Origin: a virus
IMG/VR virus record: IMGVR_UViG_3300032289_002394
Span: 1 to 39,369 of that record
Direction: 5' to 3' (one strand)
DNA length: 39,369 nt
Shown here: in pieces, positions 12,026 through 28,914 of the stretch
Numbering within the stretch: position 1 is the first letter of the stretch
Layout: the number at the start of each line of letters is the position of its first letter
The notes under the pieces: generated by a model
What the model saw: only the letters and a program-made list of their open reading frames with translations
Told to the model about the DNA's origin: nothing
Database searches by the model: none
Made by a program: the position numbers and the translations under genes

Positions 12026-14272
12026 ATGCCTAATCCATTGCAACAGGTTGAACAGAATTTATCAGAAATTGCTGTAGCACAAGTCTCAGAAAAAAACCCT
12101 AACCTTTTAAGTTACTACCTCGGTTTTGATATAATCGACAAGAATGATGATGGCACAAGAGCGGCTGGCATCATGGGATTTAAAATTGGCGGTCAATTAA
12201 TTTACATTCCCGTATTTTTCCTCAGTGGAAAAATTAAAGGGATGGAAGTAATGTATCTTAAAAATTCTGACACGTTTGTGGCTAATAACGAGCAATGGGT
12301 AAATTATATTTCTAGTCAAAATCCTTCAGACATTGGCGAGCCAGTTTCCAAAGAAGTTCAAAATTCCCAGGGTGAAATGAACAATTCTCTGAGAATTTTT
12401 TCAAGACCTCCTGCTAGTGCGAACAGCAAGGCTGCTTCAACGGAGATTCATGAATTGTCAGTAGAAGACTTCATTGACACAAAGATTGCGTTAAATGAAT
12501 CATCCAAAGACTTTGTTGATTTTATTAAGGAAGCTGGACATGAAGTTTCATTAAACTTTGCAAAACTGGCATCAGAGAAGCCCGAGATTCTGGAGATTGT
12601 TTCTAGAATTTATGATCTTGATGAAGTTAAGCAGGCAATGGAGGAAGCTAAGGCAAATTCAAAGATCAAGGAGCCCAAAGAAGTAAAAGCTGAAAAAACT
12701 TTAGAGCTTATCAAATCTGAAGATGTTTTAGAGGATCCATCATCTTTCCCCAATTTATCAAAAGATAAAAAAGAGAAGATGATGTCTAAGGGGTATGCAG
12801 TCAAAGACCTTAGAAACGAAGAAGACAAGAGCGATGTTTATGTTGGTGATTATAAGCAAGAATTCTCACAGGTAACAGACACTGGTTATTATGAGATGCT
12901 TAATTGTTTTGGAGACCTTAGCAAAGTTGTGGTGTTCTCCAAGGTTAATAGGCTTGGAGACAAAACCCCGCATAAGAGTAGTGGCTATGAACCACAAATG
13001 GTTTTTGATCCAAAGTCTAAAAATATATTTTGGGCTAAAGAGCCTGTATACGTCAAGGGTGGCACAAGTTTAATTAAGGACCTAGATGAAACTGAAAAAA
13101 CAGAAGTAATTAAAAACATTGGCGGAACAGTTGCTGATGCTCAGGTAAACAAAGAGTACATTGCCTTAGACAGTCAAATGTCTGCCTATGGACCATTCAG
13201 GGTCACTAACAAGACTAAGGACGACAACAGAATTACCCTCAAGGTTGAACAATGTTACGTGCCAATGTCTAGCAGTCCAATGATGAAAGACGATGGGAAC
13301 TCCGATAGCTTAGACTACTCGAGAGGATGTGATCACCACAATCGTGAGTGTTTCTACGTGAGACAAGTTTCCAAAAAAACTTCAGTTCCTGAGTTTATTG
13401 GTAATGCGATGTTTGTTGGATCAGGAGTCAAATTTGTCGAAGTTAAGCAATACGATGATTACCAGTCTTCAGAGAGCACGGAAGAAAAAGAGCCAAACTC
13501 AGTTTTAAATATTATGCCAGCGAACAGCAAAACGCTTGATGCTGTTGTAACTGCCAGAGGTGGAAACAAAGTCATTGTAGAGAAATCAGCAATGTTCGAT
13601 GTCAACGTCTCAATGTTTGGGGAGACCCTCAGTTTCAGAGACAGAGGAGAGGTTGTAATTGATTTAATGCAAAGAGCAAGCCTCTCGGAAGATTCAGCAG
13701 AAAAAGTTGCTACTGAAATTTTTGAGTTATCAAAGCGTCGTCTTGTAGCTTGGTCAATTCCAAGATCAAAGAAGGCTAACTACCCAAACATTGAGTTACC
13801 TTCAGGTGCTGCAGGTGTTCACAGAGATGGAACTCCCATTCAAGTTGAACAATACGAGAAGGCTGAAATGATGCCAGCAAGTCCTGGTCCACAAAACGCA
13901 ACAGACATGGAAATTGGTATGTGGGACCAAATTTCAGAAGATGACATTAAGTTTCTTGAAAGAGCAAGCGACAGCAATGCTCGCCAAGTTTTTGATCCAG
14001 CAATGATTGGGGTCATGGTAAGAACTTCCAGATCTCAATCTATTGTTCAAGAATACATCCCTGAGTTAGTAGACAACTTAGATAGAATGTGCAGATTGCT
14101 TCTGCTCTTCTATTGGCACAACTCAGAATTTGCCGAAGAATATGGTATTGACGAAATGGCAGACTTTGAAGATCTGATTTTGTCCACCATTAAGTCGACC
14201 TCAAAGGTTGTGTTGTTCCTTAAGCAACGTGCCGTAGAGAGTTCAACTGGGCAAACGGATGTTCTTGGCTAA
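12026..14272 (+). CDS. Large probable virion protein, function unknown (748 aa)
   Basis: A long soluble protein without membrane segments or signal peptide. Residues 25-95 contain hydrophobic beta-type segments (IMGFKIGGQLIYIPVFFL). An acidic/Lys-rich linker follows near 205-245 (AMEEAKANSKIKEPKEVK). The C-terminal 90 residues are helical (YIPELVDNLDRMCRLLLLFY). I considered a portal, but the pattern of portal proteins is not evident. Its size and position among structural genes suggest a virion component. It ends with TAATG shared with the next, tagged gene. No family is recognised. Confidence 0.5.
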   Translation: MPNPLQQVEQNLSEIAVAQVSEKNPNLLSYYLGFDIIDKNDDGTRAAGIMGFKIGGQLIYIPVFFLSGKIKGMEVMYLKNSDTFVANNEQWVNYISSQNPSDIGEPVSKEVQNSQGEMNNSLRIFSRPPASANSKAASTEIHELSVEDFIDTKIALNESSKDFVDFIKEAGHEVSLNFAKLASEKPEILEIVSRIYDLDEVKQAMEEAKANSKIKEPKEVKAEKTLELIKSEDVLEDPSSFPNLSKDKKEKMMSKGYAVKDLRNEEDKSDVYVGDYKQEFSQVTDTGYYEMLNCFGDLSKVVVFSKVNRLGDKTPHKSSGYEPQMVFDPKSKNIFWAKEPVYVKGGTSLIKDLDETEKTEVIKNIGGTVADAQVNKEYIALDSQMSAYGPFRVTNKTKDDNRITLKVEQCYVPMSSSPMMKDDGNSDSLDYSRGCDHHNRECFYVRQVSKKTSVPEFIGNAMFVGSGVKFVEVKQYDDYQSSESTEEKEPNSVLNIMPANSKTLDAVVTARGGNKVIVEKSAMFDVNVSMFGETLSFRDRGEVVIDLMQRASLSEDSAEKVATEIFELSKRRLVAWSIPRSKKANYPNIELPSGAAGVHRDGTPIQVEQYEKAEMMPASPGPQNATDMEIGMWDQISEDDIKFLERASDSNARQVFDPAMIGVMVRTSRSQSIVQEYIPELVDNLDRMCRLLLLFYWHNSEFAEEYGIDEMADFEDLILSTIKSTSKVVLFLKQRAVESSTGQTDVLG

Positions 14273-14745
14273 TGAATAAATACGCAAAAGAGTATATCAA
14301 GTCTTTCGTTGGTGCAGTTAAACAAAAGACTGCGGTAGAACCCAAGAACGATATTATAGGGGACTATATAGTAAAACCTATTATCAATAGTTTTAGGGGT
14401 GCATATAGCAATGCAAGAGACGCCAAAGATCTGTATGCAGCGGGTCAACCTGATGCGGCAAAAGCAAAAACCTATCAAGCTGTCGGAAATTTGGGGATGG
14501 GTGTGGGGTTAGCACTCCCCGTAGGAAGGGGAATAGCTTGGGGAAGTAAAATGATCACGGGTGGGGTTAATACAGCAAGACCACTGCTTCGCACTTTATC
14601 TAATGCAGCAACAACGGGTGGTCTTTTTGGTGGGGCAGCTTTAACTGGATATGGATCTAATAAATATGAAAAATACGAACTATCTAAGCTCAAACCCCAC
14701 CTAGATGTTCTTGGAAAAATGAGGTCTGGATATAATCCTGAATGA
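14272..14745 (+). CDS. MNKYA-tagged glycine-zipper protein (157 aa)
   Basis: The protein begins MNKYAKEYIKSFVGAV, the tag shared by at least six other modules in the window. Two Gly/Ala-rich hydrophobic stretches follow at about residues 75-95 (NLGMGVGLALPVGRGIAWG) and 110-128 (ATTGGLFGGAALTGYG), which could form a membrane hairpin. The C-terminus is charged. The start overlaps the previous stop (TAATG) and the stop overlaps the next start (ATGA). By analogy with T4 internal proteins I infer a packaged virion protein that may enter the host membrane on ejection. Confidence 0.6.
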   Translation: MNKYAKEYIKSFVGAVKQKTAVEPKNDIIGDYIVKPIINSFRGAYSNARDAKDLYAAGQPDAAKAKTYQAVGNLGMGVGLALPVGRGIAWGSKMITGGVNTARPLLRTLSNAATTGGLFGGAALTGYGSNKYEKYELSKLKPHLDVLGKMRSGYNPE

Positions 14746-15641
14746 GTCAGATAAAACAATTTTCTAGGGATTTTAGTGAAGACCCTGATTATTCTCCATC
14801 GTGGAGAGCAAATCAGGCTATGGAGTATCGTCGTGTGTACAGAGACTTAGTTTCTCGTGGAGAGGAAAACATTGTTGTTATTCCACCAGAAGAAAGTGAT
14901 GAATACATTATAGACTATTTTTCTTATTTAATTCATGGAGCTTGCCACTTTTCAGAAATTAAATATGCACACTCCTGTTTTAACAGCAACCACGTAAGGG
15001 GTTTTGGAACACAGATACAGGCAATGTTCCTTGGACAAAAAACGGTCTCAGAGATTGCAGAAAGCTTTAAAACGAAAGAAAAAAACATTGAGTGCTTTCT
15101 CAAGATGTTTTTTGACGTATCTAATTATTTGGATTGTGAAAATTTAATATATTCTTTAATTTCTCCTTATGATAGATGGAAAGAGACTCCACTTGATGTT
15201 GTAGCTAATTCAATATGGATGGGACTTTCCTATGAGTTTGGCTGGGACACTGCAAAATATATCTTACAAAGACGACTTCAAGTTACAGAGAAAATTGCCG
15301 AAAAATTAAGCAATGCCATGAAGCAGTCTCTTTCTTTACAGGCCAGTGAATATGTATTAGGTGTAAGATTAGTGAATCATGCAAGACCTAGTGACTTTGA
15401 AAGACATATTGCGTATACTAATGCTTTAAGCTTTGCTGAAAAAGATAGAGATCAAGGACCTTTCAGTAATGGTGATTTATTTAGAAATGCCCTTTGGGCA
15501 GGAATTACTGAAACTTCGGTAATGTTAGATAAAGGCGACCCAGTTAGAAAAATGATCGGAGAAAAAGAAAGAGAAATGAGAAATATTGGAAATACTGTAG
15601 AGATTAAAGAATTGACATATTCTACTCCACAACCATTATAA
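14742..15641 (+). CDS. Unrecognised helical protein with possible HTH (299 aa)
   Basis: The protein is mostly alpha-helical with aromatic-rich segments. Residues about 99-125 (GQKTVSEIAESFKTKEKNIE) look like a helix-turn-helix of the kind used to bind DNA. The early part contains VVIPPEESDEYIIDYFSYLI, and the end is a charged helix. It is located between tagged and coiled-coil virion genes and overlaps the previous stop (ATGA). Possible roles include a virion protein or DNA-binding packaging factor; neither can be shown. Confidence 0.45.
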   Translation: MSQIKQFSRDFSEDPDYSPSWRANQAMEYRRVYRDLVSRGEENIVVIPPEESDEYIIDYFSYLIHGACHFSEIKYAHSCFNSNHVRGFGTQIQAMFLGQKTVSEIAESFKTKEKNIECFLKMFFDVSNYLDCENLIYSLISPYDRWKETPLDVVANSIWMGLSYEFGWDTAKYILQRRLQVTEKIAEKLSNAMKQSLSLQASEYVLGVRLVNHARPSDFERHIAYTNALSFAEKDRDQGPFSNGDLFRNALWAGITETSVMLDKGDPVRKMIGEKEREMRNIGNTVEIKELTYSTPQPL

Positions 15642-15660: not shown

Positions 15661-17079
15661 ATGATTTACGAGCGAATTGAAAAATCACTTAATCAAGCGA
15701 TTAAATTACACAACTCTGGAATGGGAGCAAACGATAGCATCATTAAAGTTGCTAAAGACAATGAGCTCAATCCGGAAACAATTTGCCGTGTAGTCGAGGC
15801 ATTCAATATTGCTAAGACCAAGGCATACGTTAAGGTGGCCGAAGACAAAGCTGGAGACTTTGACGTTGCCGATAAAAAAGAAGTCATTAAGAGAGTCTTT
15901 GAAAACTCTTCAGTCGAGCCTAAGACTGCGTCTGTGGTCGATGATTTGTTTGGGGAAAGAGATAATTTCAAGTATGAGGAGTTTGATGGAAACTACATCG
16001 AAGAGAACATCAAGGTCTCTAGCACTTCTGAGGTTTCTTTAGACGATAGAATCAAAAAAGCTTATCAAGCCATTGAAGAACAAGATAGGGAGATTGAAGA
16101 ACGCAAAAAGGAAATTGTTTTAGTGAAAGAGGCTTTTTATACATCGCTCAAACAACTGACAGATTCACTTTCCTACACTGAAGAACGCGAGAAAGTTGCG
16201 GATGCAGTTGCTGAAGTGTTCTACGAGCACGGGGAAAACAAACGTGCAGGCAAAGTTCTCCATTTAATTTCCAAGTGCGCAAATCTCAAGTTTGATGAAA
16301 TGACAGAAAAGCTTGGAGGAGCACACTCTCCGACCACTGGGACATTTGTTTCCTGCTTTAATTCTTTGGTAGAGTCTGATGAAGAGTATTCCAAGTTAGC
16401 AAAAGAGTTTAACGAAACATTAAAGCAAGCTAAAGATGGCCAAGAAGAATTAATGAGTTTAGTAAAGAGGGCTGGTGGAATTAACTCTAATCAAAAAGCT
16501 GCCAAGCTTATTGGTTCCAAGAAGTCTCAAAAACTTGCTAAAAATGAAGATCTCCCTGAAGATCTTTTGAATGATGTCTTGGGATCTTTATTTAAGGATA
16601 AAAAGGCTCAAGAAAAGCTTGAGAAAAAGATCGCCTCTACCAGTTTCTTGAAGATCTCTAATGCCGGAGGTAGTGCAAAAATTCCTGGCGCTTTTGACCC
16701 ATCCACTTACAGTACGCTACAGTTACCAAGTGGCAAAGACTTATGGTCTAAGGGGTATGAGCTTCGTCTAAAAAAAAAGACTGACCCAATGGGGGACGTT
16801 GAAACATCTAGGGAAATAGAGGGAATCAAAAGACAAACTATCTTAGCAGAACTCCTCAACGATGAAATTATTTCTCAGCAAAATCCAGAAGACGTCATTA
16901 GTGCATACAATACGATGATTCAGTTGGCACCTAATGCTAGCTTGGTTAAGGATGTTGCAAAGTCTGTGCTTCGTCAAGGAACGGCACAAGTTATTGATCC
17001 ACATTTCGCTAGTACGTTAACTGAGCTAGAGCTCAGCTTACTGAAGACACAAAACTTTACTCCAGGACAAAAACAGTGA
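15661..17079 (+). CDS. Long helical/coiled-coil probable virion protein (472 aa)
   Basis: The N-terminal 60 residues form a helical domain (NQAIKLHNSGMGANDSIIKV). Residues about 125-165 (RIKKAYQAIEEQDREIEERK) form a coiled coil, and a second helical domain follows. A Ser/Gly-rich region near 325-350 (TSFLKISNAGGSAKIPG) links to a C-terminal domain. KLA/KVA-type motifs recur (YVKVAED, QKLAKNE). Highly helical proteins of this size between tail and head genes can be scaffolding or internal proteins. No family is recognised. Its stop overlaps the GTG start of the next gene. Confidence 0.45.
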   Translation: MIYERIEKSLNQAIKLHNSGMGANDSIIKVAKDNELNPETICRVVEAFNIAKTKAYVKVAEDKAGDFDVADKKEVIKRVFENSSVEPKTASVVDDLFGERDNFKYEEFDGNYIEENIKVSSTSEVSLDDRIKKAYQAIEEQDREIEERKKEIVLVKEAFYTSLKQLTDSLSYTEEREKVADAVAEVFYEHGENKRAGKVLHLISKCANLKFDEMTEKLGGAHSPTTGTFVSCFNSLVESDEEYSKLAKEFNETLKQAKDGQEELMSLVKRAGGINSNQKAAKLIGSKKSQKLAKNEDLPEDLLNDVLGSLFKDKKAQEKLEKKIASTSFLKISNAGGSAKIPGAFDPSTYSTLQLPSGKDLWSKGYELRLKKKTDPMGDVETSREIEGIKRQTILAELLNDEIISQQNPEDVISAYNTMIQLAPNASLVKDVAKSVLRQGTAQVIDPHFASTLTELELSLLKTQNFTPGQKQ

Positions 17080-17445: not shown

Positions 17446-18324
17446 ATGAACTTAAAGTCGCTGGCCCAAAAAATTGAACAAAAGATCGCTGCTTCTTCAG
17501 ATCTAGAGCTTGCCTTGCAAGAGTATGATGCTGAGGTGGGGCAAATGGCCATTGATTGCCTCAAAAATACAAAAATTGCAGAAGCCTCCATTTTTGAAAC
17601 AATTTTAAACAAGGCTAAAGACATCGCTCAACGTCCTTACGCAAATACTGGTGCACTAAGTGCCATTACGGGTTTAGGTGGTGCAGCAGCAGGTGGACTA
17701 CTTAGTGGAAATTTAGTATCAAAAAAAGAATTAGAATCTGAATCAGATTTCAAAAAAAGAAAACGTGATACAGCTATTATTGGAGCTCTTGCAGGCGGAG
17801 CACTTGGAGCTGGAGCCCCAGGACTCTTAAATGTCAGTGGAACACTGGGTTCTGCTCCAGCAGAGACCCCATCGCTTGGAGATCAAATTAGTCCATTGGG
17901 TGTGGGAGCAGGCGCTTTAACGGGCCAAGGGCTTTGGCGCTATGGAAAAGGATGGTTAGATAAATTAATTGATCCAGATTATGATAAACGCCTAAAAATC
18001 ATTGAATCTGTTGGGGAGCGAGGTAGTAAAGAATGGTGGGATATAAAGAGAAAGATGGTTCCATCGGTGTTTAATCGCGGTGATTTAGCTTTACCAGCAC
18101 CAGGACAAACTCCAGGTATTTTACAAAAAGTTAAAGAGTTTTTAATATCAAAAATAAAACCATCTTCGACATACTCAACCCCAGCATCAGCTCTAGAAAA
18201 GGGGATTGCAGGTGGTGTCCAAGTACCTAAAATAGTTCCTAAATCATTAAGAGTTGGAGCCGGATTTTTACCAGCCATTCTTGGTGGCTACGTTGGAAAT
18301 CAAGTTGCCGAAGCTGTAGAATAA
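17446..18324 (+). CDS. Glycine-zipper hairpin protein (292 aa)
   Basis: The N-terminus (MNLKSLAQKIEQKIAASSD) is a helical leader. Two Gly/Ala zippers (about 69-87, ITGLGGAAAGGLLSG; about 110-128, IIGALAGGALGAGAPGLL) flank a charged linker (KKELESESDFKKRKRDT), the same hairpin layout as in the MNKYA family. A third hydrophobic stretch near the C-terminus (VGAGFLPAILGGYVGNQ) could be another membrane segment. It directly precedes the maturation protease. I infer an internal virion protein able to insert in membranes; sequence alone does not prove this. Confidence 0.5.
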   Translation: MNLKSLAQKIEQKIAASSDLELALQEYDAEVGQMAIDCLKNTKIAEASIFETILNKAKDIAQRPYANTGALSAITGLGGAAAGGLLSGNLVSKKELESESDFKKRKRDTAIIGALAGGALGAGAPGLLNVSGTLGSAPAETPSLGDQISPLGVGAGALTGQGLWRYGKGWLDKLIDPDYDKRLKIIESVGERGSKEWWDIKRKMVPSVFNRGDLALPAPGQTPGILQKVKEFLISKIKPSSTYSTPASALEKGIAGGVQVPKIVPKSLRVGAGFLPAILGGYVGNQVAEAVE

Positions 18325-18332: not shown

Positions 18333-19655
18333 ATGAGAAAAATTGTATTCAACGACTCATTTGAGTATCCAGAGGCAGAATATCTGGTGAAAATTGTTGA
18401 CGATCCATTTGATCGTCGCAAGATTGCCAGTTCTGTCAGAGATAGCTGGGGAGACATTGAGCCAGTTAAGAATCATACCCTTATCCATTTAATTGCTCTA
18501 GGGTCATTTGAGAAGACTGGAAGCAATTTAAACTTTGATGCTTTTGAAGAGGAGACCTGCAAAAAGTCTCACGATACTTTTGTTAAAAAAGCAAAACTTT
18601 ATAGACATCACAACAGTAAGGTTCCTCATGAACAACGCGACGGTGATGTATTAAAATCTGCCTATAACGATAAGATGGGCAGAGTGGAATTGATCATTGC
18701 TGCCAATAATGACAAGTGCGCTGACTGGCTTGGTAAAATCGAAAAGGGTGGAGAAGCCAAATTTTCTATGGGGTGGCACTGCGATAATGATATTTGTTCT
18801 ATTTGCGGGAATAAGGCCAAGACAGCATCAGAATATTGCATGCACGTTAAAAAGGGTGCACAGCATCCTTATGGTAGGAATAAGATTCTCCCAGACGGCA
18901 GAAAATGCTTTGTTTACAACAGAGAGGGTTACTGGAACGATATCTCTTATGTTGACCGTGGTGCAGACATGATTGCCATGGATTTAGCAAAGATTGCTAG
19001 CCTTAGCTCAACTGAGCCAGTTGGGGGAGCAGAACTCGCTGAATTGTTTGAGCACAGAATACTTTCTACCTCGAAACTGGCTATTGCCGAAAAGCTTTCT
19101 AAAATTCAAAAATACATTCAAGCTTCAGGGGTGGCCACAAAAGCTAGAGATAAAAACGATCTTTCTGAGTCTGCCATCAGAGAACTTCAAGAAAAGAAGC
19201 CCCCTCAAATGTTTGGAGCTTTGGCTAAGAGTGGGGCACTTCTATCTTTTGACGTATTTTGTAAACTTTCATTTGGGTCTAAATACAAAGAGTTTGAATC
19301 TGTTGTTAAACAGGCCTCAGGGTCTTTTAACCAGTGCTTAGAACTCGAATTAATGGATAATGCATGTCTTGATAATATTGCATCAATTCATGACTTTGAT
19401 CCTGATACAGCTAAGAATGCTGGGTTAACCCAAAATACTATTTCTGAATTAATTAAATTTTCGATTGCCAACGAATGGCAGGACGAAAAAATAAAGATAG
19501 CTACTTTACAGAATGACATCTATGATTATTCAGAAATGGTGGTAACACCACAAGCGCGAGGATTAGTTCGTCAGTACTTGGCTTATAAGGTTGCTTTCTT
19601 AAACTTTATTGACGCCAATGAAGACATGATCTTTAATGCACTTGTTTTAAATTAA
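18333..19655 (+). CDS. Probable head maturation (prohead) protease with zinc knuckle (440 aa)
   Basis: The N-terminal ~220 residues match the pattern of phage prohead proteases: a His in KLYRHHNSKVPHE (H92/H93) and the Ser motif KFSMGWHC (S145), analogous to the His and Ser of the T4 gp21/herpesvirus protease fold. Inserted after the Ser is a metal-knuckle-like stretch CSICGNKAKTASEYCMH (C155, C158, C169, H171), followed by YWNDISYVDRGAD typical of this family. The C-terminal 220 residues are a separate, partly helical region with no known match; it may act as internal scaffold. It is followed by the acidic scaffold and the capsid gene, the usual order. It would cut scaffold and tagged internal proteins during maturation. 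Confidence 0.8.
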   Translation: MRKIVFNDSFEYPEAEYLVKIVDDPFDRRKIASSVRDSWGDIEPVKNHTLIHLIALGSFEKTGSNLNFDAFEEETCKKSHDTFVKKAKLYRHHNSKVPHEQRDGDVLKSAYNDKMGRVELIIAANNDKCADWLGKIEKGGEAKFSMGWHCDNDICSICGNKAKTASEYCMHVKKGAQHPYGRNKILPDGRKCFVYNREGYWNDISYVDRGADMIAMDLAKIASLSSTEPVGGAELAELFEHRILSTSKLAIAEKLSKIQKYIQASGVATKARDKNDLSESAIRELQEKKPPQMFGALAKSGALLSFDVFCKLSFGSKYKEFESVVKQASGSFNQCLELELMDNACLDNIASIHDFDPDTAKNAGLTQNTISELIKFSIANEWQDEKIKIATLQNDIYDYSEMVVTPQARGLVRQYLAYKVAFLNFIDANEDMIFNALVLN

Positions 19656-19713: not shown

Positions 19714-21333
19714 ATGAGTAAAAGAAAAGCTCCCAAATTTAACACAGTTCTCGAAGATTTCCGTAAATTCATTGGTGAATCCAAAGAGGCTGAAGAATCA
19801 CAAGGTAAATCAGAGTCTTCTGTGGCCCTTGGAAAAAGCGACAGCGAAGTTGTTCAAGAACTTCCAGGTGGCGGAAAAACAAAGGGTGGACCATCCGAGC
19901 CCGTATCAAACAAGGGCGTTGATGCTACCCAAAAGCTTCCAGGTACAACTGAACCTTCAAAGGAGGAGCCCGCTCGCAAAGAATGCGCTCCATCATCTAA
20001 GGTTGCCGAAGAAGCTCCTTCAGAACTGGTCAATCGTCTTCTCTCAAACATCAAGCTGGCTGTAGAAGCCATTGAGGGTGAAGAGAAAAAGGAAACTGCA
20101 CCAGTTGAGACAAAAAAAGAACTCAAGGGTGACCAGAAAAAATTAGATGTAGATGACGATGGCAAAATTGACGGTGAAGACCTCAAAAAGCTTCGCGAAA
20201 TGAAAAAAACAAAATCTGCTTCTGATGAGTCTCAAGCTGAAGAAGCTGCCCAAACTGAAGAAGTCAAAGAGGAGTCAGCCGAAGAAGTGAAGGAAGCAGA
20301 AAGCTGCGACAGTGCTGCTTCAATGAGCGCCACAAAAGAGGAGACTAAAGAGGAGACTAAAGAGGAGTCAGAAGAAGAGTCTGAAGATGAAGAAAAGGAA
20401 GAAAAAGAAGAGAAGGCAGCTTTAGAAATCGATGAAGACAAACTTGCAGAAAAAATTGCTGCTCATTATCGTAATATCTCTGTTGGCTACGAACTTGGCA
20501 AATTTCTGTTTGGATCTTTAGGTCAAAAACAAGCTGAAGCCCCAATGGCTGAAGCCCCAGCTGAAGCACAGTCTGAAATTGAAGTAATTCTTCAGGCTCT
20601 CCAAGAGTTGGTTGCCGAAGGCGAAATTACAGAAGAACAAGCACAAAATGTTCTGATGCAACTTCAAGCTGCCGCTGAGGGTGGCGCAGCACCCGAGGCT
20701 TCTGCAACGGCAGAAGAGCCAAAGATGGCCAATGAAATTTTTAGCGAAGATCAAGTTAAAGAGATCGAAGCAAGCATTAATGCTAAAGTTGCTGAATGGG
20801 TGTCTGAAGGCAAAACTGATGCTGAAATTACAGACCTCATTAAGCAAGCTGCTGAATCGGATGCCAGCCTTTTGGTTGGATCAGTTCAGCAAGATAAGGT
20901 TGCTGGCGAGGCAGAACAAGTTGAAAATCAAATCATTGAAGCTGTTAATGCTAAGGTTGCTGAGCTTAAAGAAGCTGGAGCAACCGAAGAACAGATTGAA
21001 CAATATTTAACAGAGGCTGCAAAAGCTGATGCACAAGCATTGATTAAAGCAGCACAACAAGAAAAAATTGCTGCAGAGATCATGAACAAGGTTGCAGAAA
21101 AACGCCAAGAGAAGTTGGCTAATGTTTCTCCAGAGGTTCAACAAATTCTTGAGGCATTAGAAGCCCTTTTACAGTCGGGACAGATCACAGAAGAAGAAGC
21201 CATGATGGTTCTTCAAGAACTTGGTCTTGCTGGTGGCGAACAGGCCGCAGCTTCAGCCGAAGAGGCTCCAGCTGCACCAGCCGAAGAAGCTCCAGTTGCC
21301 CCACAGGCTGCAGATAAAAAAGAGGACAAGTAA
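19714..21333 (+). CDS. Acidic scaffold-like head core protein with EF-hand-like loop (539 aa)
   Basis: The protein is extremely Glu/Lys/Ala rich, with disordered regions (residues about 20-90 and 165-245) and helical segments, typical of capsid scaffolds. At 145-156, DVDDDGKIDGED fits a canonical EF-hand calcium loop (D, D, D, G, I, D, D at positions 1, 3, 5, 6, 8, 9, 12). The C-terminal half has mirrored repeats: an outer pair (IEVILQALQELVAEGEITEE; VQQILEALEALLQSGQITEE) around an inner pair (INAKVAEWVSEGK; VNAKVAELKEAGA). Many EK-[LIV]-A motifs could be protease sites. It lies between the protease and the capsid cluster. Identification rests on composition and order, not on sequence homology. 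Confidence 0.7.
   Translation: MSKRKAPKFNTVLEDFRKFIGESKEAEESQGKSESSVALGKSDSEVVQELPGGGKTKGGPSEPVSNKGVDATQKLPGTTEPSKEEPARKECAPSSKVAEEAPSELVNRLLSNIKLAVEAIEGEEKKETAPVETKKELKGDQKKLDVDDDGKIDGEDLKKLREMKKTKSASDESQAEEAAQTEEVKEESAEEVKEAESCDSAASMSATKEETKEETKEESEEESEDEEKEEKEEKAALEIDEDKLAEKIAAHYRNISVGYELGKFLFGSLGQKQAEAPMAEAPAEAQSEIEVILQALQELVAEGEITEEQAQNVLMQLQAAAEGGAAPEASATAEEPKMANEIFSEDQVKEIEASINAKVAEWVSEGKTDAEITDLIKQAAESDASLLVGSVQQDKVAGEAEQVENQIIEAVNAKVAELKEAGATEEQIEQYLTEAAKADAQALIKAAQQEKIAAEIMNKVAEKRQEKLANVSPEVQQILEALEALLQSGQITEEEAMMVLQELGLAGGEQAAASAEEAPAAPAEEAPVAPQAADKKEDK
20146..20181 (+). other. EF-hand-like calcium-binding loop within the scaffold gene
   Basis: These 36 bases encode DVDDDGKIDGED followed by LKKL. 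The acidic positions 1, 3, 5, 9, 12 and Gly 6 and Ile 8 match the EF-hand/dockerin loop. Only one loop is present, so it may bind calcium as a dimer or serve as a non-EF pseudo-loop. Confidence 0.6.
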
Positions 21334-21334: not shown

Positions 21335-21733
21335 ATGGACAACACTATTGTAAAACAAATCATCGAAGACGCTGCAAAGCTTGCAGAGCAATCTGTAACA
21401 GCTTTTAAAGCACAAAAAAGACTCGAAGAAATTGAGCCACTTTTTGATAAAATTTCTAAGAAAGCCTCAGAGCTGGAAGAAACTACAAAAACAGCCCAAG
21501 AAGAGTTCAGGTCTGGCTTAGATAAAGTTGCCTCTATCTTAACAACTCGTGGAATTCTTGATGAATCCAATAAAGAAGCTTTCATCAATGCTATTGTTGA
21601 AAAACCAACAGAAGTATTCAACGTTGTTGAAAAGCTGGCCTCTGAATTAAAAGCTGAAAGCTTTGGTGGAGCTGGCTCACTTCCAGCATCTTCAGAGCTC
21701 GATCCCTTTGAAAAATTAGCTCTGGGCGAGTAA
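21335..21733 (+). CDS. Small coiled-coil, scaffold-like protein (132 aa)
   Basis: I place the start at ATG 21335, right after the scaffold stop and preceded by GAGGA; the frame is open further upstream but that part overlaps the scaffold. The protein is helical and charged (KAQKRLEEIEPLFDKISKKA, residues 25-44) and ends SELDPFEKLALGE. It carries three K-[LV]-A motifs (DKVASI, EKLASE, EKLALG). It is probably a second scaffold or core component translated together with the large scaffold. Confidence 0.6.
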   Translation: MDNTIVKQIIEDAAKLAEQSVTAFKAQKRLEEIEPLFDKISKKASELEETTKTAQEEFRSGLDKVASILTTRGILDESNKEAFINAIVEKPTEVFNVVEKLASELKAESFGGAGSLPASSELDPFEKLALGE

Positions 21734-21882
21734 TGAATAAATACGCTAACATATATCTTAATGGTCTCACAGATCTTTTAGGAATGGCGGCAAAAAAACA
21801 CACTCCTGAATTTTTTAGATCCGATACATTTGAACAAGGAGAAGGAAATCCAGTTTCTGCAAAAATGATTGGCACAAAATGA
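21733..21882 (+). CDS. 49-residue MNKYA-tagged microprotein
   Basis: ATG 21733 shares TAATG with the preceding stop, and the TGA at 21880-21882 overlaps the next ATG at 21879. It begins MNKYANIYLNGLTDLLGM, the shared tag, then KKHTPEFFRSDTFEQGEGNP and ends MIGTK. TPEFFR also occurs in the protein at 28111 (YTPEFFRDRNH), so it may be a shortened paralogue lacking the glycine zipper. It is flanked on both sides by coupled genes, which supports expression. If tags direct packaging, this is a minimal tagged cargo or a relic. Confidence 0.6.
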   Translation: MNKYANIYLNGLTDLLGMAAKKHTPEFFRSDTFEQGEGNPVSAKMIGTK

Positions 21883-22505
21883 ATAAATACTCTACAGAAT
21901 ATTTTGATAAACTTGCTGGTAGATTTACATTTCTTTCTAAATCTAAAGATGAATTAAGATCTTTAGTTGATGGATTAAAATCTTCAATCAAGCAAGTAGT
22001 TCAATCTGTTTCAAACTATAAGCCAGATAGCATGGAGAATGCCTTAACCAAGGCACTTCCAGTAGGCGCTGGAGCTGGAGCGTTATTGGGTGGAGCTTAT
22101 GGTGCCGTTTCTGATCCAGGAGTAGACGAAGAAGGAAATCCAAAAAGCAGGTTAAATAGAGCTTTAGGTGGAGCTGCAATCGGTGGTGCCGTTGGTGGAA
22201 CTGCCGGAGCTCTTTCCCCATTAGCATTAAGATCTGGAGTTAAACTTTTAGGTAAAGCCCAAGAGCGATTTGGTAACTTAGATAAACCAGTTGTGCAAAA
22301 CATTGGAGGAATGCAAATATCTTCTGCTCGTGGATTTAAAAACCCTCAAAGAAATAAAGAGATTATTCCTGGGGTGAGAGAGATCCCAAGCGTTTCAGCA
22401 TTAGCAAAAGAATTTACTGACAATAGACTTAATAGAATGCAAGATATGTCTGTCAAAGACATGCTTAAGCTTTTAGCGTCTAATAAATTAAAAGATAATT
22501 TTTAA
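21879..22505 (+). CDS. MNKYS-tagged glycine-zipper hairpin protein (208 aa)
   Basis: The tag (MNKYSTEYFDKLAGRF) is followed by two glycine zippers (about residues 62-78, VGAGAGALLGGAYGAV; about 95-112, LGGAAIGGAVGGTAGA) joined by DPGVDEEGNPKSR. The second half of the 28111 protein has the same layout (DPGTNEDGTPKSR between zippers) and a matching C-terminus (MSVKDMLKLL versus MSVSDFVNLV), so the two are paralogues. It lies between the scaffold cluster and the capsid genes. I infer a packaged internal protein that forms a membrane hairpin after ejection. Confidence 0.65.
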   Translation: MNKYSTEYFDKLAGRFTFLSKSKDELRSLVDGLKSSIKQVVQSVSNYKPDSMENALTKALPVGAGAGALLGGAYGAVSDPGVDEEGNPKSRLNRALGGAAIGGAVGGTAGALSPLALRSGVKLLGKAQERFGNLDKPVVQNIGGMQISSARGFKNPQRNKEIIPGVREIPSVSALAKEFTDNRLNRMQDMSVKDMLKLLASNKLKDNF

Positions 22506-22507: not shown

Positions 22508-22858
22508 ATGAATAAATACTCAAAAATTTATTTAGATAAATTAGCATCTATTAGTTTTGGTGCCAGTTATGAGGATGGAAAACCATCCTTGCTTGCAACC
22601 TTAATGGAAAAAATTCGAATGAAGAGTCTTCCTGATCGCCTTCAAATGGTTGTTCCCTCTGCTTTAGTCGGGGCTGGATTAAGTGGCGTTGGGTCTTCAC
22701 TTATTGAAGCATCTAAGTCAGATGAACTACAAGAGAGGGATAAAATGGAAGGCAAATCCCCAAGCAAAAATATTATTAATAGTATTCTTGGGGGAGCTTT
22801 AGGCGGGGCTACTGGTGGTGTAATGTATACTGCTGGACGTGATTCAACTCTTTTATAA
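22508..22858 (+). CDS. MNKYS-tagged short glycine-zipper protein (116 aa)
   Basis: It begins MNKYSKIYLDKLASISFGA. A hydrophobic segment (about 46-63, VVPSALVGAGLSGVGSSL) and a second (about 92-110, SILGGALGGATGGVMY) flank a charged, Ser/Lys-rich linker (KSDELQERDKMEGKSPSK). This is the same hairpin plan as its upstream neighbour, in a shortened form. It is the last gene before the structured leader of the capsid genes. No homologue by name is recognised. Confidence 0.6.
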   Translation: MNKYSKIYLDKLASISFGASYEDGKPSLLATLMEKIRMKSLPDRLQMVVPSALVGAGLSGVGSSLIEASKSDELQERDKMEGKSPSKNIINSILGGALGGATGGVMYTAGRDSTLL

Positions 22859-23503: not shown

Positions 23504-24535
23504 ATGAATACAAACATTCCAGCTAAACTTATTAATGACAAGTTCATGGAGAAAATTGCTACCGGCGATTTAAACAAGGCAGCTGAAGTCGCTACCGATT
23601 TCACACGCTTGACCCTCCGTGAAGAAGGCTTGCTCCGCAAGATTCTTCCTGCTTCAACAATTACCTCAGCAGAACTCGACAAACAGCTCGATACTGATGA
23701 GCCAGTCAAGATCGTCGACAAAGAAGTGTCGCAACCCCTCTCAATGAGCGTTGGTTTCGCAACTCTTCCTAAGAATCGCATCATGAAGGGCGACAGATAT
23801 CGTGTTGACTTCGCTCGCATTCTCAGCCCAAGCTACTTCCAAGACGTTCGTAGACTTGAGCAATACGATTACGACATTCGTAACGTGTTCAAAGAAAATG
23901 CGATCAAAGATCACATGACTGCTGAAGATGTTCCATTCTTCAACACTGTTGATTCAATCGTAACACCAAGCTCAGCCGCAACAGGCGGATCATGGGCCGC
24001 ACAAACGGGTGGCTCAAACGTCAGCCCTGTCACTGGCAAAGCTCAGTACTACGATTTCACAGTTTCTTACAAAAACCCATTGGGCTTAACCTCAGGGTTC
24101 ACACGTGAAGCAATTGTCGAATCAATGAAGATCATGTCGAAAGGGTTCACCCCTGGCTCAGGCACCCTCGGTGCTGAACAGACCCCTATTCGTCTGAATC
24201 CTGATCTCGTAGTCATGAACGTGAACACGGGTCGTGAGTATCTCAAGTTCCAGCACACGAACATCGGTGATCTTTCAACCGAAATGTTCAAGAACGGACT
24301 TGCTACTACAACCCTCTTGGGCCAAAAGCACCTGTTCACAATGAAAGACGATATCGTCAAGGACGGCGAAGCTTATTTCTTCGCAGCTCCTCAGTTCCTC
24401 GGTAAGTTCTATGAACTCGAGCAACCAACGATGTTCGTTGATCGTCGTGCCTTCATGGTCGAATTCTTCATCTACTCCTCAATCGGTGCCTCAATCGGTA
24501 ACCCATTCGGCGTAGCTAAAGTGAAATTCTTCTAA
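23504..24535 (+). CDS. Major capsid protein (343 aa)
   Basis: The protein has the size and gene order of a HK97-fold major capsid protein: protease, scaffold, decoration, capsid. After a helical N-terminal arm (KLINDKFMEKIATGDLNKAA), the segment FTRLTLREEGLLRKILP and a domain with VDFARILSPSYFQDVRRLEQ fit the family. The end is aromatic and hydrophobic (VEFFIYSSIGASIGNPFG). A GGAG site precedes the ATG. Codons favour CGT/CGC, CTC and TTC, unlike neighbours that favour AGA/AGG. N-terminal EKIATGD is a candidate maturation site. A terminator follows within 50 bases. Confidence 0.85.
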   Translation: MNTNIPAKLINDKFMEKIATGDLNKAAEVATDFTRLTLREEGLLRKILPASTITSAELDKQLDTDEPVKIVDKEVSQPLSMSVGFATLPKNRIMKGDRYRVDFARILSPSYFQDVRRLEQYDYDIRNVFKENAIKDHMTAEDVPFFNTVDSIVTPSSAATGGSWAAQTGGSNVSPVTGKAQYYDFTVSYKNPLGLTSGFTREAIVESMKIMSKGFTPGSGTLGAEQTPIRLNPDLVVMNVNTGREYLKFQHTNIGDLSTEMFKNGLATTTLLGQKHLFTMKDDIVKDGEAYFFAAPQFLGKFYELEQPTMFVDRRAFMVEFFIYSSIGASIGNPFGVAKVKFF

Positions 24536-24628: not shown

Positions 24629-25327
24629 ATGAATAAATACGCATCACTTTATTTAACAAAATTAGCGGCAACATTAAATCCTGATGATGTTGTTGTACCA
24701 CAAAAAGACCGTGGCCTTTTTGGTGGAGTAGTTTCAGATTTTTTACTCCTCCCTGAGTCTCAAAGAAGGTCTGGCAGAATATCTGGAATGCAAGAAGCTG
24801 CAGGTATTGAGCCAACCATGACTCAGCGTTATCCTCTCACTGCAAGACTTCTTAAGACCTTTGTTGGAACAGGAATTGGGGCAGGATTAGGATCATTAAT
24901 TGGGTCTTCATTTTCTAACAACGACCCGTACGGGACAAATGTATTGTCTGCCTCTTTTGCGGGAGCAGGTATAGGAGGCACCTTAGCAAATGTTATTGAC
25001 GTAATACAAAAAAGAAGAGCAGAAGCAGAAGCCTTAAAGCAAGTTTCTGAATCTGATGATGTAAATCTTAGAAGAATTGAAAAGGGAAATATATTAGCTT
25101 CATTAGTTTCTGGTATGCATCAAAAAGGAAGGGGTGAGGTTGCGAAAGCTTTGTCTGGAGGTCAAATAAAGAAAGATATTAAATTTGATCAAATTCCAAT
25201 GACTGCTTCGTCATTTATTCACCCACTTCCTGTAGCCATTGGTTCTGCATTTAATTATGCCAAGTCCAGGAAAGAGATTGATAAAGCTAACAGAGTTTCT
25301 CCATTAAGCGTTCAGTTAACTAAATAG
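24629..25327 (+). CDS. MNKYA-tagged glycine-zipper protein (232 aa)
   Basis: It begins MNKYASLYLTKLAATLNP. Hydrophobic small-residue segments lie at about residues 75-92 (FVGTGIGAGLGSLIGSSF) and 105-120 (LSASFAGAGIGGTLANV), separated by NNDPYG, again a hairpin plan. The C-terminal half is charged and helical. It is the first gene after the promoter at 24590 and is followed by the tRNA cluster. An internal virion protein is inferred from the tag. Confidence 0.6.
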   Translation: MNKYASLYLTKLAATLNPDDVVVPQKDRGLFGGVVSDFLLLPESQRRSGRISGMQEAAGIEPTMTQRYPLTARLLKTFVGTGIGAGLGSLIGSSFSNNDPYGTNVLSASFAGAGIGGTLANVIDVIQKRRAEAEALKQVSESDDVNLRRIEKGNILASLVSGMHQKGRGEVAKALSGGQIKKDIKFDQIPMTASSFIHPLPVAIGSAFNYAKSRKEIDKANRVSPLSVQLTK

Positions 25328-25338: not shown

Positions 25339-25412
25339 TGCGGGAACAAGCCTTGGTAGGCTAACCAGTCTCATAAGCTGGGGCAATGTGAGTTCAATTC
25401 TCACTCCCGCTA
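25339..25412 (+). tRNA. tRNA with CAU anticodon (Met or Ile2)
   Basis: The fold shows anticodon stem CCAGT/GCTGG around CTCATAA (anticodon CAT), T stem GTGAG/CTCAC around TTCAATT, D stem AGCC/GGCT and acceptor GCGGGA/TCCCGC. The first pair would be T-T, an unpaired 1-72 position reminiscent of initiator tRNA, but the three G-C pairs of an initiator anticodon stem are missing. It may be elongator Met, Ile (lysidine-modified) or initiator-like. No CCA is encoded. Confidence 0.8.
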
Positions 25413-25423
25413 TTTTTGCTTTG

Positions 25424-25452
25424 ACCTAGTGTCCAAAAGACACTAGGTTTTT
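25424..25452 (+). terminator. Intrinsic terminator inside the tRNA cluster
   Basis: ACCTAGTGTC (25424-25433) pairs perfectly with GACACTAGGT (25439-25448) around CAAAA, followed by a T-run to 25452. It separates tRNA-CAU from tRNA-Glu, so the latter two tRNAs must come from read-through or another promoter. Confidence 0.85.
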
Positions 25453-25458
25453 GCTTAT

Positions 25459-25530
25459 GTCCTCGTAGTGAAGCGGTCATCACAGCTCCCTTTCACGGAG
25501 CTATCACGGGTTCGATCCCCGTCGAGGATG
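25459..25530 (+). tRNA. tRNA-Glu (UUC)
   Basis: Anticodon stem GCTCC/GGAGC encloses CTTTCAC, giving anticodon TTC. The acceptor GTCCTCG pairs with CGAGGAT (one G-T pair) with discriminator G, as is usual for tRNA-Glu. The T arm ACGGGTTCGATCCCCGT is canonical. No CCA is encoded. Confidence 0.92.
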
Positions 25531-25537
25531 TAAAAAC

Positions 25538-25609
25538 AGAGCTGTAGTTCAATGGCAGAGCATCGCTTTGATAAAGCGAGGGTTGTAGGTTCGAGTCCTA
25601 CCAGCTCTA
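25538..25609 (+). tRNA. tRNA-Ile (GAU)
   Basis: Acceptor AGAGCTG pairs with CAGCTCT, discriminator A. Anticodon stem TCGCT/AGCGA encloses TTGATAA, giving anticodon GAT for Ile. The T arm GTAGGTTCGAGTCCTAC is canonical. It lies 15 bases before the GMP reductase start. No CCA is encoded. Confidence 0.92.
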
Positions 25610-25624
25610 GATAATACACAAACA

Positions 25625-26560: not shown

Positions 26561-26566
26561 GTATCT

Positions 26567-27181
26567 ATGAATAATTTAAGGTATCCACCAACCCTACAGT
26601 CGTTAATTGAAAAGAAATCTTCTCTTAAGAACACTGTAGAAACAGACAACAAAACAACTCAAGAACAACAAGTCACAATGAGCGAAGTATCAGAAACAAT
26701 AGAAAAGGTAGCATCAGAAACAATAGAAAAGGTAGCATCAGAAACAATAGAAAAGGTAGCATCGGTAACCGACAACCCCGAGTCTTTAAAGGGGCTTGCC
26801 AGTCATTTTAGAGCAATGCAATTGCTTGCTCATAATGCACACAACTTGATTAGTGGACCATCATTCTTCTCTGATCATGACTTCTTTGGAGCTCTTTATG
26901 GAGAATATGAGGCTGCATACGACAGAGTTATTGAGCTCTTAATCGGCAACGGAGAAAAACCTGATCTAGTTGTTCTTCAAACTGAGGCAGTCGGAAAGCT
27001 TTCTTCTCTAAGTCAAGAGGATCACTTTAAAGCAGTTCTAGCCGCTGAAGAGCAACTTCAAAGCGCTATCGAAGAGTTTGCTAAGACAAATCCATCGCAA
27101 GCTGCCTTGAATATGGCTGGGGACTTGGGAGAGACGAGCAAGGTCAGGATTTACAAGATTCGTCAAAGACTCGCAGCCTAA
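26567..27181 (+). CDS. Dps/ferritin-like protein with repeat-bearing N-terminus (204 aa)
   Basis: Residues about 72-204 fit the Dps four-helix fold. H92 in HNAHNLISGPSFF, H104 in SDHDFFGAL, D119 and E123 in YDRVIELL have the spacings of the Dps ferroxidase residues (12, 15 and 19). The fifth ligand, Asp at H+4 in E. coli Dps, is Gly here. Dps proteins bind DNA and oxidise iron with peroxide, protecting DNA. The first 65 residues are an extension that contains three perfect SETIEKVA repeats. An internal ATG at 26678 could give a shorter form. It ends with TAATG shared with the deaminase. Whether it is packaged or acts in the cell is unknown. Confidence 0.72.
   Translation: MNNLRYPPTLQSLIEKKSSLKNTVETDNKTTQEQQVTMSEVSETIEKVASETIEKVASETIEKVASVTDNPESLKGLASHFRAMQLLAHNAHNLISGPSFFSDHDFFGALYGEYEAAYDRVIELLIGNGEKPDLVVLQTEAVGKLSSLSQEDHFKAVLAAEEQLQSAIEEFAKTNPSQAALNMAGDLGETSKVRIYKIRQRLAA
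26690..26761 (+). repeat. Three perfect 24-base tandem repeats in the Dps-like gene
   Basis: The unit begins TCAGAAACAATAGAAAAGG and encodes SETIEKVA. Copies start at 26690, 26714 and 26738 and are identical in DNA, indicating recent expansion by slippage. Each unit carries EKVA, a motif recurrent in the structural proteins. Confidence 0.95.
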
Positions 27182-27594
27182 TGAATAATCCTAGAATTTC
27201 TTGGGAGCAATATGCTCTTAAAATTGCAGACGTTGCTGCACTAAGAAGCGAAGATACCTACAGGAAAGTTGGGGCATGTGCCCTTAATCACTCTAATCGC
27301 GTAATTGCAGTTGCCTATAACGGTTTAGCTCCTGGAAAGTCAGTTGATTCAATTTTTTGGGAAGACAGAGACAAGAGAAGAAAATTTATGCTTCATGCAG
27401 AGATAAATGCTCTTTCTTTAATTGATAATGGAGACTGTAGACTTCTAGCTTGTACGCTTATGCCTTGTCCTGCCTGTGCTACAGCCATTGCTGCAAATGG
27501 AGTTAAAAAGGTTGTTTACAGAGATGAATATCAAAAAGAATCTTTAGAAATTTTTGATTTCTATGGAATAGAATATCAGCGTATAATCACCTAA
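27181..27594 (+). CDS. dCMP/cytidine deaminase-family enzyme (137 aa)
   Basis: The zinc-dependent deaminase motifs are present: HAEINAL (H72 ligand, E74 proton shuttle) and PCPACA (C96 and C99 ligands). The N-terminal YRKVGACALN and YNGLAPG segments fit the dCMP deaminase branch, which makes dUMP for dTMP synthesis. It may equally deaminate another nucleotide. It is fused in the transcript with the Dps-like and GMP reductase genes, fitting a nucleotide-supply role during infection. Confidence 0.85.
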   Translation: MNNPRISWEQYALKIADVAALRSEDTYRKVGACALNHSNRVIAVAYNGLAPGKSVDSIFWEDRDKRRKFMLHAEINALSLIDNGDCRLLACTLMPCPACATAIAANGVKKVVYRDEYQKESLEIFDFYGIEYQRIIT

Positions 27595-27595
27595 G

Positions 27596-28111
27596 GTGAA
27601 TAAGTACGCCAATTTTTACTTTTCTACAGTAACTCAAAAGTTAGCAGAAAATCCTGCTAATCACGGAGTTATTTTTTGGCCATTTAAGAGAACCCTTGGA
27701 AGGCCTAAGGGATTGTCTGATTATGCATTTGCTAAGATGCAAGAAAGGGGAAGATTGGCTAGTGGCATACTTCCAAGCATAATGGCATCTAATCCAATAA
27801 TGAAAATGTTTGGAAGACTTGGAGAAAATAGAATTGGTCAGTATTTTATAGATAAATATCTATCTCCAGGTGGAAGCTATACTGATTCTTTTTTAAAAAC
27901 ATTAGGATCTGTTGGAAACGACCTTGCTGGACCTGGAATGAAAAATTTGCCTGAGTCTGTGGCAAGATCTGCTAACTTATTTAAAAATATAACTAAGACT
28001 TTTACGGATAATAATGGCATGTGGGATTACAAAAAATCTTATGGATATAATATGCCACAGACTATTGAAAATCTTTCGGCATATCAAAAACAATTTGGAG
28101 GCGTATTATAA
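27596..28111 (+). CDS. NKYA-tagged protein with a domain shared with the last gene (171 aa)
   Basis: The start is GTG 27596, giving (M)NKYANFYFSTVT, the family tag. Residues about 37-171 share an extended match with residues about 65-200 of the protein at 38306: GRPKG...SDY, KMQERGRLASGI, IMASNP, SPGGS, DLAGPG..N and FGG. This shows duplication of one domain between a small tagged protein and a long tail-region protein. No glycine zipper is present here. Its stop overlaps the next start (TAATG). Function is unknown. Confidence 0.6.
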   Translation: MNKYANFYFSTVTQKLAENPANHGVIFWPFKRTLGRPKGLSDYAFAKMQERGRLASGILPSIMASNPIMKMFGRLGENRIGQYFIDKYLSPGGSYTDSFLKTLGSVGNDLAGPGMKNLPESVARSANLFKNITKTFTDNNGMWDYKKSYGYNMPQTIENLSAYQKQFGGVL

Positions 28112-28914
28112 TGGCTGACGAAGAATATTTTGACGAAGAAGAGGGAGAAGAACTGGAAGAACAAAAGCCAGGTCCTGTTCGTAGGTTTTTGCAAAACTTA
28201 ATCATTGGCTCAACCATTGGAGCGGGTGTTGGTGGAGCGGGGGGATATTATGGAGCAAAGTATTTAAGAGACTTGGCATTATACAGTACGCCGCCAAATT
28301 CATACACTCCTGAATTTTTTAGAGATAGGAATCACCCAATTGGAGCCACAAGAGCAATGACCGTTCCAGGTGGAATGGTGGTGGGGGGACTATTGGGGGC
28401 AGTTGGGGGTGCCACACTTCCATATATTTTTCAAAAAAGAGCTCACATGGAAAACAATAAATATGCCAATCAATTTTTCAGTAATTTAAAAAATGAAATA
28501 AAAAAGCTTCGTCCATTTGATCAAGCTGACGCCACTATGAAACTAATGCCACTTGGAGTGGCTGCAGGTTCTTTAACGGGAGGACTGGTTGGTGCCATTA
28601 AAGATCCAGGGACAAACGAAGATGGAACTCCTAAGAGCAGATCATCTTCAATATTAAAGGGAATGGCGATAGGTGGAGGACTGGGAGGATTTGGTGGGTT
28701 GGCTGTTCCAGCCGTGGGGGCTTTGACGGCTAAAACCGTTTTTCCTGGGATTGCTAGCAAGCTGCAAGAAAAATATAAAAATATGGGCACGGCAAAGTCA
28801 AATATAAACATTGCAGTATTGGAGGCTGCAAAAGAAACTCTTCCACGCGCTCTGCCACACATGTCTGTCTCTGATTTTGTTAATTTAGTAAAAGTATTAA
28901 AGGACAATAAATAA
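28111..28914 (+). CDS. Fused double glycine-zipper protein with internal NKYA tag (267 aa)
   Basis: The first unit has an acidic start (MADEEYFDEEEGEELEE), a zipper (about 31-50, IIGSTIGAGVGGAGGYYG), TPEFFRDRNH and a second zipper (about 88-108). At residue 113, MENNKYANQFFSNLK restarts the family pattern, and zippers separated by DPGTNEDGTPKSR follow, closely matching the protein at 21879. It looks like two tagged units joined in one frame. An internal start at ATG 28447 could still yield the second unit alone. It precedes the head-tail joining genes. Confidence 0.6.
   Translation: MADEEYFDEEEGEELEEQKPGPVRRFLQNLIIGSTIGAGVGGAGGYYGAKYLRDLALYSTPPNSYTPEFFRDRNHPIGATRAMTVPGGMVVGGLLGAVGGATLPYIFQKRAHMENNKYANQFFSNLKNEIKKLRPFDQADATMKLMPLGVAAGSLTGGLVGAIKDPGTNEDGTPKSRSSSILKGMAIGGGLGGFGGLAVPAVGALTAKTVFPGIASKLQEKYKNMGTAKSNINIAVLEAAKETLPRALPHMSVSDFVNLVKVLKDNK

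Follow-up and report, generated by a model that had tools for sequence, protein, structure and literature searches.

A predicted capsid-loading leader with a Lys-x-Ala boundary on mostly unrelated proteins of a large phage head module

Apart from T4 and P1, little is known, to our knowledge, of how large phages select the proteins, RNA polymerase among them, that they pack and inject. Capsid targeting in T4, which involves IPI, IPII, IPIII and Alt as well as the protease gp21, relies on a short N-terminal leader, and the variable internal proteins are encoded near conserved head genes (PMC9026906, PMC7411985). Within IPIII, residues 4 and 7 govern targeting and residues 8 and 10 govern processing (PMC9026906). 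With regard to phage P1, the first 30 residues of DarB suffice as a packaging signal that directs a reporter to the capsid by itself (PMC9024508). Phages of the SPN3US/phiKZ type are large myoviruses with many protease-processed head proteins, internal proteins that include RNA polymerase and the prohead motif A-x-E; a common short tag is not reported in those sections of the publications that are drawn on here (PMC7411985, PMC10052503). For Salmonella phage Arash, 116 virion proteins have been listed with RNA polymerase beta as the most abundant one (PMC10585845); the coverage values in Table 2 of that report, which give 100% coverage with two peptides for many proteins, are left out of consideration.

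The locus described here resembles each of these systems in part. As in T4, a short N-terminal leader precedes variable, putatively internal proteins that are encoded near conserved head genes, and the core proteins are rich in the predicted protease motif. Unlike the T4 leader, the leader found here, termed the MNKY tag, is longer, shows variable spacing, contains K-x-A instead of I/L-x-E and is attached to Gly-zipper-like cargo. Like that of P1 DarB, the signal would be N-terminal, but it is present on many proteins, whereas the Dar proteins lack a common sequence (PMC9024508). The predicted protease motif also differs from that of the SPN3US/phiKZ-type phages, to which the general outline of a large myovirus with processed head proteins and internal RNA polymerase would otherwise correspond. 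A related capsid protein and protease, split RNA polymerase genes and a K-x-A-rich head module are shared with Arash and Vibrio phages D69, D148 and D181 (PMC10585845), whereas the tag itself was not found in the stretches of Arash and D69 that were searched. On the evidence set out below, we interpret the MNKY tag, with a probability of roughly 80%, as a capsid-loading leader that is cut after Lys-x-Ala by the prohead protease, the bodies surviving as internal proteins.

The window, i.e., the whole virus record of 39,369 bases analysed here, is a fragment of a larger phage genome, and the search of its own genome was confined to this stretch. Gene starts were called with simple rules, and the names portal, scaffold and decoration are based on position and relatives. 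RNA polymerase genes (3565-6633 and 10077-11933) are followed by a probable portal gene (12026), a tagged gene (14272) and the genes for a core protein (15661), a Gly-rich hairpin protein (17446), the head protease (18333), a scaffold-like protein (19714) and a small core protein (21335). Three tagged genes (21733, 21879 and 22508), a decoration-like gene (23013), the major capsid gene (23504) and another tagged gene (24629) come next, and three tRNAs, three metabolic or Dps-like genes, tagged genes at 27596 and 28111 and finally neck and tail genes complete the order. The probable portal protein (12026..14272, + strand) is enriched in K-x-A and was inferred from its position and its resemblance to Arash Gp218, with no family match. 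The major capsid protein (23504..24535, + strand) matches the PHROG major head protein (E 3.5e-5), is 33% identical to the major capsid protein of Arash and 81-88% identical to those of the three close relatives G001, G002 and G003. These relatives were taken in in full, together with the fragments G004, G005, G007 and G008.

An earlier note on this DNA had listed seven modules opening with a near-identical tag and had suggested a profile search. All seven are present (starts 14272, 21733, 21879, 22508, 24629, 27596 and 28447), the tag coinciding with the start codon of an open reading frame in six of the seven cases and lying internally at 28447, and they score 19-37 with a position-specific matrix; in shuffled proteomes, roughly one site per 112,000 residues scores above 10. 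The motif does not end at residue 9 as described in that note; it extends to about residue 17, where it ends in K-x-A, with the consensus MNKY-[AST]-xx-Y-[FLI]-xx-[LIV]-x-K-x-A. When 26 tagged proteins from this phage group were aligned from their starts, M-N-K-Y occupied columns 1-4, A/S/T column 5, Y column 8, F/L/I/M column 9 and L/I/V column 12, and the K of K-x-A was located at residue 11, 13-15 or 19. Column identity amounts to 0.78-0.92 at residues 1-4 and 8 and drops to a background of 0.04-0.10 past residue 17, just beyond K-x-A. This motif occurs within residues 9-21 in 20 of the 26 tags vs. 7 of 391 windows of equal length in other parts of these proteins; the six tags lacking it include those of the 28447 hairpin family. 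As tag codons vary synonymously among the tagged genes and no common ribosome-binding sequence was found upstream of the tags, the conservation of the tag lies at the protein level. Two defining traits of T4-type capsid targeting sequences are seen here: a short conserved N-terminal leader is common to otherwise unrelated proteins, and it ends at the motif, itself a predicted one, of the phage's own prohead protease. Homology to the T4 leader was not found, the boundary carrying K-x-A and no E, and the T4-like reading of capsid targeting combined with processing is well supported as a sequence-based analogy, not as homology. Searches with the tag pattern in other viral contigs yielded single matches in unrelated contexts that were taken as chance, the strings NKYLEKIA, KYFEKIA and KYLEKVA do not occur in the text of the literature searched, and a reading as bacteriocin leader, for which there was a single weak class II match only, was dropped.

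Directly 3' of the portal gene, the first tagged protein (157 aa; 14272..14745, + strand) carries the leader MNKYAKEYIKSFVGAVKQKTA with K-x-A at residue 19, followed by two Gly/Ala segments; a homologue of its body was not found in G001 or G003. The tagged mini-ORF (49 aa; 21733..21882, + strand), MNKYANIYLNGLTDLLGMAAK, has neither K-x-A nor hairpin and overlaps the next start, which belongs to a protein of 208 aa (21879..22505, + strand) with KLA at residues 11-13 and a Gly-zipper-like hairpin with the linker DPGVDEEGNPKSR. KLA at residues 11-13 and two Gly/Ala segments are likewise present in the fourth tagged protein (116 aa; 22508..22858, + strand) and in the fifth (232 aa; 24629..25327, + strand), which is encoded directly 3' of the major capsid gene. 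The sixth (171 aa; 27596..28111, + strand) starts with GTG and has KLA at residues 15-17. The last one, 28111..28914 (+ strand), joins a Gly-rich segment without tag to a tagged hairpin module that begins at 28447 with MENNKYANQFF; since relatives encode this module as a gene of its own (72213 in G001, 69177 in G003), 28111-28914 either is a fusion or contains an internal start. In complete agreement with the earlier note, two Gly/Ala-rich segments joined by a polar linker are found in exactly five of the seven (14272, 21879, 22508, 24629 and 28447); they are absent from 21733 and 27596. For the tagged bodies, Pfam and PHROG yielded weak low-complexity matches only. On the Gly-zipper-like proteins, the Pfam families Gly-zipper_Omp and Gly-zipper_YMGG stayed below the curated cut-off (16.6 vs. 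25 and 15.9 vs. 28.9 bits, respectively), and an AlphaFold model of the hairpin (pLDDT 48) was too poor for use.

The tagged bodies are mostly unrelated and fast-changing and reside in variable slots 3' of the portal and capsid genes. Between lineages, most backbone genes show 45-81% identity, whereas for the bodies of tagged proteins 14272, 21733, 22508 and 24629 a counterpart in another lineage could not be detected. The interval from the portal gene to the homologue of 14742 contains one to three tagged genes that differ by lineage, and the same holds true for the interval 3' of the capsid gene. It could be argued that the tag has been kept by descent alone, i.e., that recent tandem duplications were followed by divergence of the bodies and that the tag has no targeting role. 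The tagged genes do stand in tandem, and several hairpin members are true paralogues (21879, 28447 and G003_69177, 32-38% identity). We consider this reading highly improbable, since other bodies are unrelated or are common to untagged proteins: in 27596, the tag precedes a body that is paralogous to the start of the large untagged protein 38306-39369 (43% over 124 aa), so an existing domain can acquire the tag. Furthermore, descent alone fits neither the synonymous variation of the tag codons nor the sharp drop in identity at residue 17. Outside the head module, too, tagged genes are found, adjoining a metallophosphoesterase gene in G002 and G007; one of their products, G002_109938, shares 38% identity with the tagged protein encoded next to the portal gene in G003. 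Distant relatives keep the core of the tag on other bodies.

K-x-A was first noticed at the tag ends and then tested unchosen by ranking all 400 residue pairs at five spacings (2000 gapped pairs). It takes rank one in the head modules of the window (85 observed vs. 43 expected), G001 (75 vs. 37), G003 (83 vs. 47), Arash (41 vs. 20) and D69 (51 vs. 22), and is at expectation in the rest of these five records. Control patterns such as KA, KxxA, AxK, ExA and RxA show no enrichment. Over the five head modules, GxxxG comes second after K-x-A. Out of sample, 40 of 46 further capsid loci, not all of which are independent, have K-x-A at the top of the ranking, and among 37 protease loci K-x-A takes rank one in 14 and a place within the top five in 25. 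Weak enrichment is seen in the more distant protease relatives phage G, Pupper and I3. These statistics are drawn from related sequences and hence are not independent. As a control, the same scan was run on the head genes of T4 and ranked I-x-E first; I/L-x-E is the known cleavage site of T4 gp21 (see also PMC9026906). That K-x-A behaves like the cleavage site of a prohead protease is well supported by these comparisons, the putative P1 residue being Ala, preceded preferentially by Val, Ile or Leu and followed preferentially by Ser or Glu.

A candidate for this enzyme is encoded in the module itself. The predicted prohead (head maturation) protease (440 aa; 18333..19655, + strand) matches the PHROG head maturation protease (E 4.9e-6), the profile phrog_18299 matches five of five members of its family, and its relatives comprise Arash Gp222, a D69 protein, phage G gp19 and the "capsid maturation protease" of Gordonia phage Pupper. 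Its assignment is based on this profile match combined with its position between core and capsid genes. As candidates for the catalytic Ser/His of the phage/herpes protease fold, a His and Ser145 are conserved between the window and Arash; there was no match in Pfam and no credible one in a PDB profile search, and the AlphaFold model is poor (pLDDT 39). K-x-A accumulates in an acidic scaffold-like core protein located between protease and capsid genes (19714..21333, + strand; 19 vs. 8.8 expected), in a core protein (15661..17079, + strand; 15 vs. 4.3) and in a small core protein (21335..21733, + strand; 7 vs. 1.6). An N-terminal K-x-A is kept in three of three lineages by eight head or cargo families, i.e., RNA polymerase beta, 6646, 7911, 15661, 17446, the protease, the scaffold and 21335, and is absent in all three from 14 others, among them sheath, tube, neck, portal and decoration, these 14 including every tail and neck family tested. 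The RNA polymerase protein (3565..6633, + strand; Pfam RNA_pol_Rpb2_6, E 7e-41), which comprises multisubunit beta and the N-terminal part of beta', has a short leader ending in K-x-A (KKA, KNA and KEA in three lineages), and it is its homologue that predominates among the virion proteins of Arash (PMC10585845). The untagged Gly-rich hairpin protein (17446..18324, + strand) has KIA at residues 13-15 (KIA, KLA and KLA in three lineages), and three tandem SETIEKVA repeats, i.e., three K-x-A, precede the Ferritin/Dps-like protein (26567..27181, + strand; Pfam Ferritin, E 6.7e-7).

In the tagged bodies, K-x-A occurs 7 times vs. 36 expected, four of the seven being K-P-A, and the mirror pattern A-x-K occurs 42 times; K-x-G is found 6 times vs. 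39 for its mirror G-x-K. KxS and RxA are not depleted in these bodies, nor is any other residue comparable to A or G. Core proteins contain 152 K-x-A vs. 53 expected, tail and neck proteins 26 vs. 27. The major capsid protein has K-x-A at residues 17 and 25 only (none vs. 3.7 expected past residue 30), and RNA polymerase beta is mildly low (18 vs. 34 for the mirror, p 0.04). A purge of K-x-A from the tagged bodies is expected of proteins that meet the protease, enter the prohead and survive. On the other hand, K-x-G is depleted as strongly as K-x-A and yet is not enriched in the core proteins, which speaks against the proposed loading and processing, as do the six tags without K-x-A and the failure to find the MNKY tag in the stretches of Arash searched. 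Part of the K-x-A depletion may stem from segregated composition (KxxA 24/36, KA 27/36), yet the mirrors AxK and GxK are undepleted. In Arash, depletion was not found in non-core proteins with N-terminal K-x-A, so that it is the tagged lineages which show the cargo signature most clearly. All of this being sequence statistics, K-x-A or Y-[LF]-x-K-x-A might also be an uncut docking motif that binds a core or shell partner in the manner of a cargo-loading peptide; motif-rich core proteins would fit multivalent binding, and the bodies could avoid the motif because they avoid misplaced binding. We regard docking as unlikely, given that the cleavage site I-x-E of T4 shows the same pattern in the same scan, that the leader boundary lies directly after K-x-A, that a head-protease homologue is encoded in the module and that K-x-G avoidance as well as the residual K-P-A fit protease subsites.

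In the preferred reading of loading followed by cleavage, the first ~17 residues, probably forming one amphipathic helix (Tyr4, Tyr8 and the aliphatic residues 9 and 12), would bind the prohead scaffold core, and the leader would carry each tagged protein into the prohead. Tyr4, Tyr8 and K-x-A would be comparable to the targeting and processing residues of T4 IPIII. The prohead protease would cut after the leader Lys-x-Ala and free the body from the core, digest the core proteins at many K-x-A sites and trim the capsid protein near its N-terminus, and bodies devoid of internal K-x-A and K-x-G would survive as internal, probably ejected, proteins. Ejection is plausible because Arash packs many proteins, RNA polymerase above all (PMC10585845). 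In the least certain step, the many bodies with Gly-zipper-like hairpins could affect the membrane of the host while the DNA enters, a reasonable idea because translocation of a type VI secretion effector reportedly requires a glycine zipper (PMC10240207).

A leader ending at the predicted protease motif, purged bodies and a location in the head module all speak in favour of the shared capsid address that the earlier note had proposed; the tag is not homologous to the T4 sequence. The release into the host envelope and the membrane activity that this note also proposed are possibilities, the latter suggested only by Gly-zipper-like sequences, which are missing from about half of the tagged proteins. 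A wide occurrence of tags on cytoplasmic early proteins, which had been named as the observation that would contradict the address, is not seen, none of the tagged proteins being recognisably an enzyme. Alternatively, the leader could serve as an amphipathic helix that binds membranes or as a start that enhances translation, with the proteins acting at the host envelope late in infection, in lysis or superinfection exclusion, without ever being in the capsid. In line with this, the leader has a higher helical moment than other stretches of these proteins (0.40 vs. 0.26), and about half of the bodies have Gly-zipper-like segments. We nevertheless attach very little probability to this alternative, as it leaves the boundary K-x-A, the avoidance of K-x-A in the bodies and the location among core, protease and capsid genes unexplained.

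Profile searches reached 60 viral loci for the capsid protein and 188 for the protease. In distant loci, shorter tags recur, namely MNKYLEKIAS, MSNVYLEKIA and MKYFEKQAA, the first of them being carried by four to six proteins in each locus of about 20 kb. The 46 non-redundant short-tagged proteins from 18 loci have bodies depleted in K-x-A (45 vs. 75 expected), and Y-[LF]-x-K-x-A constitutes the core common to long and short tags. The loading system looks widespread because related phages use similar tags. Tentatively, and at somewhat below even odds, a large, mostly uncultured clade of ~100-226 kb phages may have a common loading code of Y-[LF]-x-K-x-A leaders in several lineage-specific forms, a K-x-A/G-cutting head protease and site-purged cargo; possible extensions are the loading of virion RNA polymerase and a Dps-like protein by related K-x-A leaders and a membrane conduit formed by the Gly-zipper cargo on ejection. 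Address, protease site and cargo list would then be predicted for a large clade down to the residue level, in a form that could be checked by reanalysing the virion spectra of a cultured relative, for instance Arash. A short tag could also serve to fill phage heads with proteins of choice that are to be delivered to bacteria, and the procedure of ranking gapped pairs in head modules and then assessing cargo depletion, which recovers the T4 site, might suit other phages. From the first Tyr to the Lys, the distance is 3 in short tags; in the window group it is mostly 7, 10 or 11, spacings that on informal inspection resemble helical turns.

Two Gly-rich hairpin proteins of the window (6646-7263 and 17446-18324) lack the MNKY-type N-terminal leader and retain in three lineages an N-terminal K-x-A, the predicted cleavage motif of the prohead protease. 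These proteins are probably additional head cargo or core components. The Ferritin/Dps-like protein encoded at 26567-27181 carries in its N-terminal part three exact repeats of SETIEKVA, each providing one K-V-A site; it may bind DNA and be packaged inside the head. A homologue was searched for in the close relatives G001 and G003 and found in neither.

Distant relatives of the protease are carried by phage G and by actinobacterial myoviruses, the loci reached being those of phage G (L213), Gordonia phage Pupper (L214) and Mycobacterium phage I3 (L215). K-x-A is weakly enriched at all three (z 2.3-2.7), and on account of this weak enrichment the cleavage specificity of these proteases may have shifted. 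The capsid family has a 36% identical member on a 3.2-kb contig of an archaeal genome bin (L212, JAJYTP010000063.1), which is likely a phage contig inside that bin.

Leader-bearing genes also occur beyond the head module, namely in the close relative G002 (109695-111227) and in G007, a fragment of a relative (54730-55912), where they adjoin a metallophosphoesterase gene in a replication/nucleotide region. Within the window, a paralogous domain occurs both in a small tagged protein of the head module (27596-28111) and at the beginning of a large protein on the tail side, whose gene is truncated where the contig stops (38306-39369).

Genes for tRNA-Met, tRNA-Glu and tRNA-Ile (25339-25609) are flanked by the tagged gene that follows the capsid gene and by an IMPDH/GMP-reductase-like gene. 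Amid the tail genes, a single ORF (37558-38274) that overlaps 37251-37712 in a different frame joins DUF4406 (nucleoside deoxyribosyltransferase-like) to DUF6378. A multisubunit RNA polymerase is split over 3565-6633 and 10077-11933, with the end of beta fused to the start of beta' in a single ORF and the remainder of beta' located 3.4 kb apart; in the close relative G003 the first of these ORFs is longer than in the window, at about 1,670 aa.
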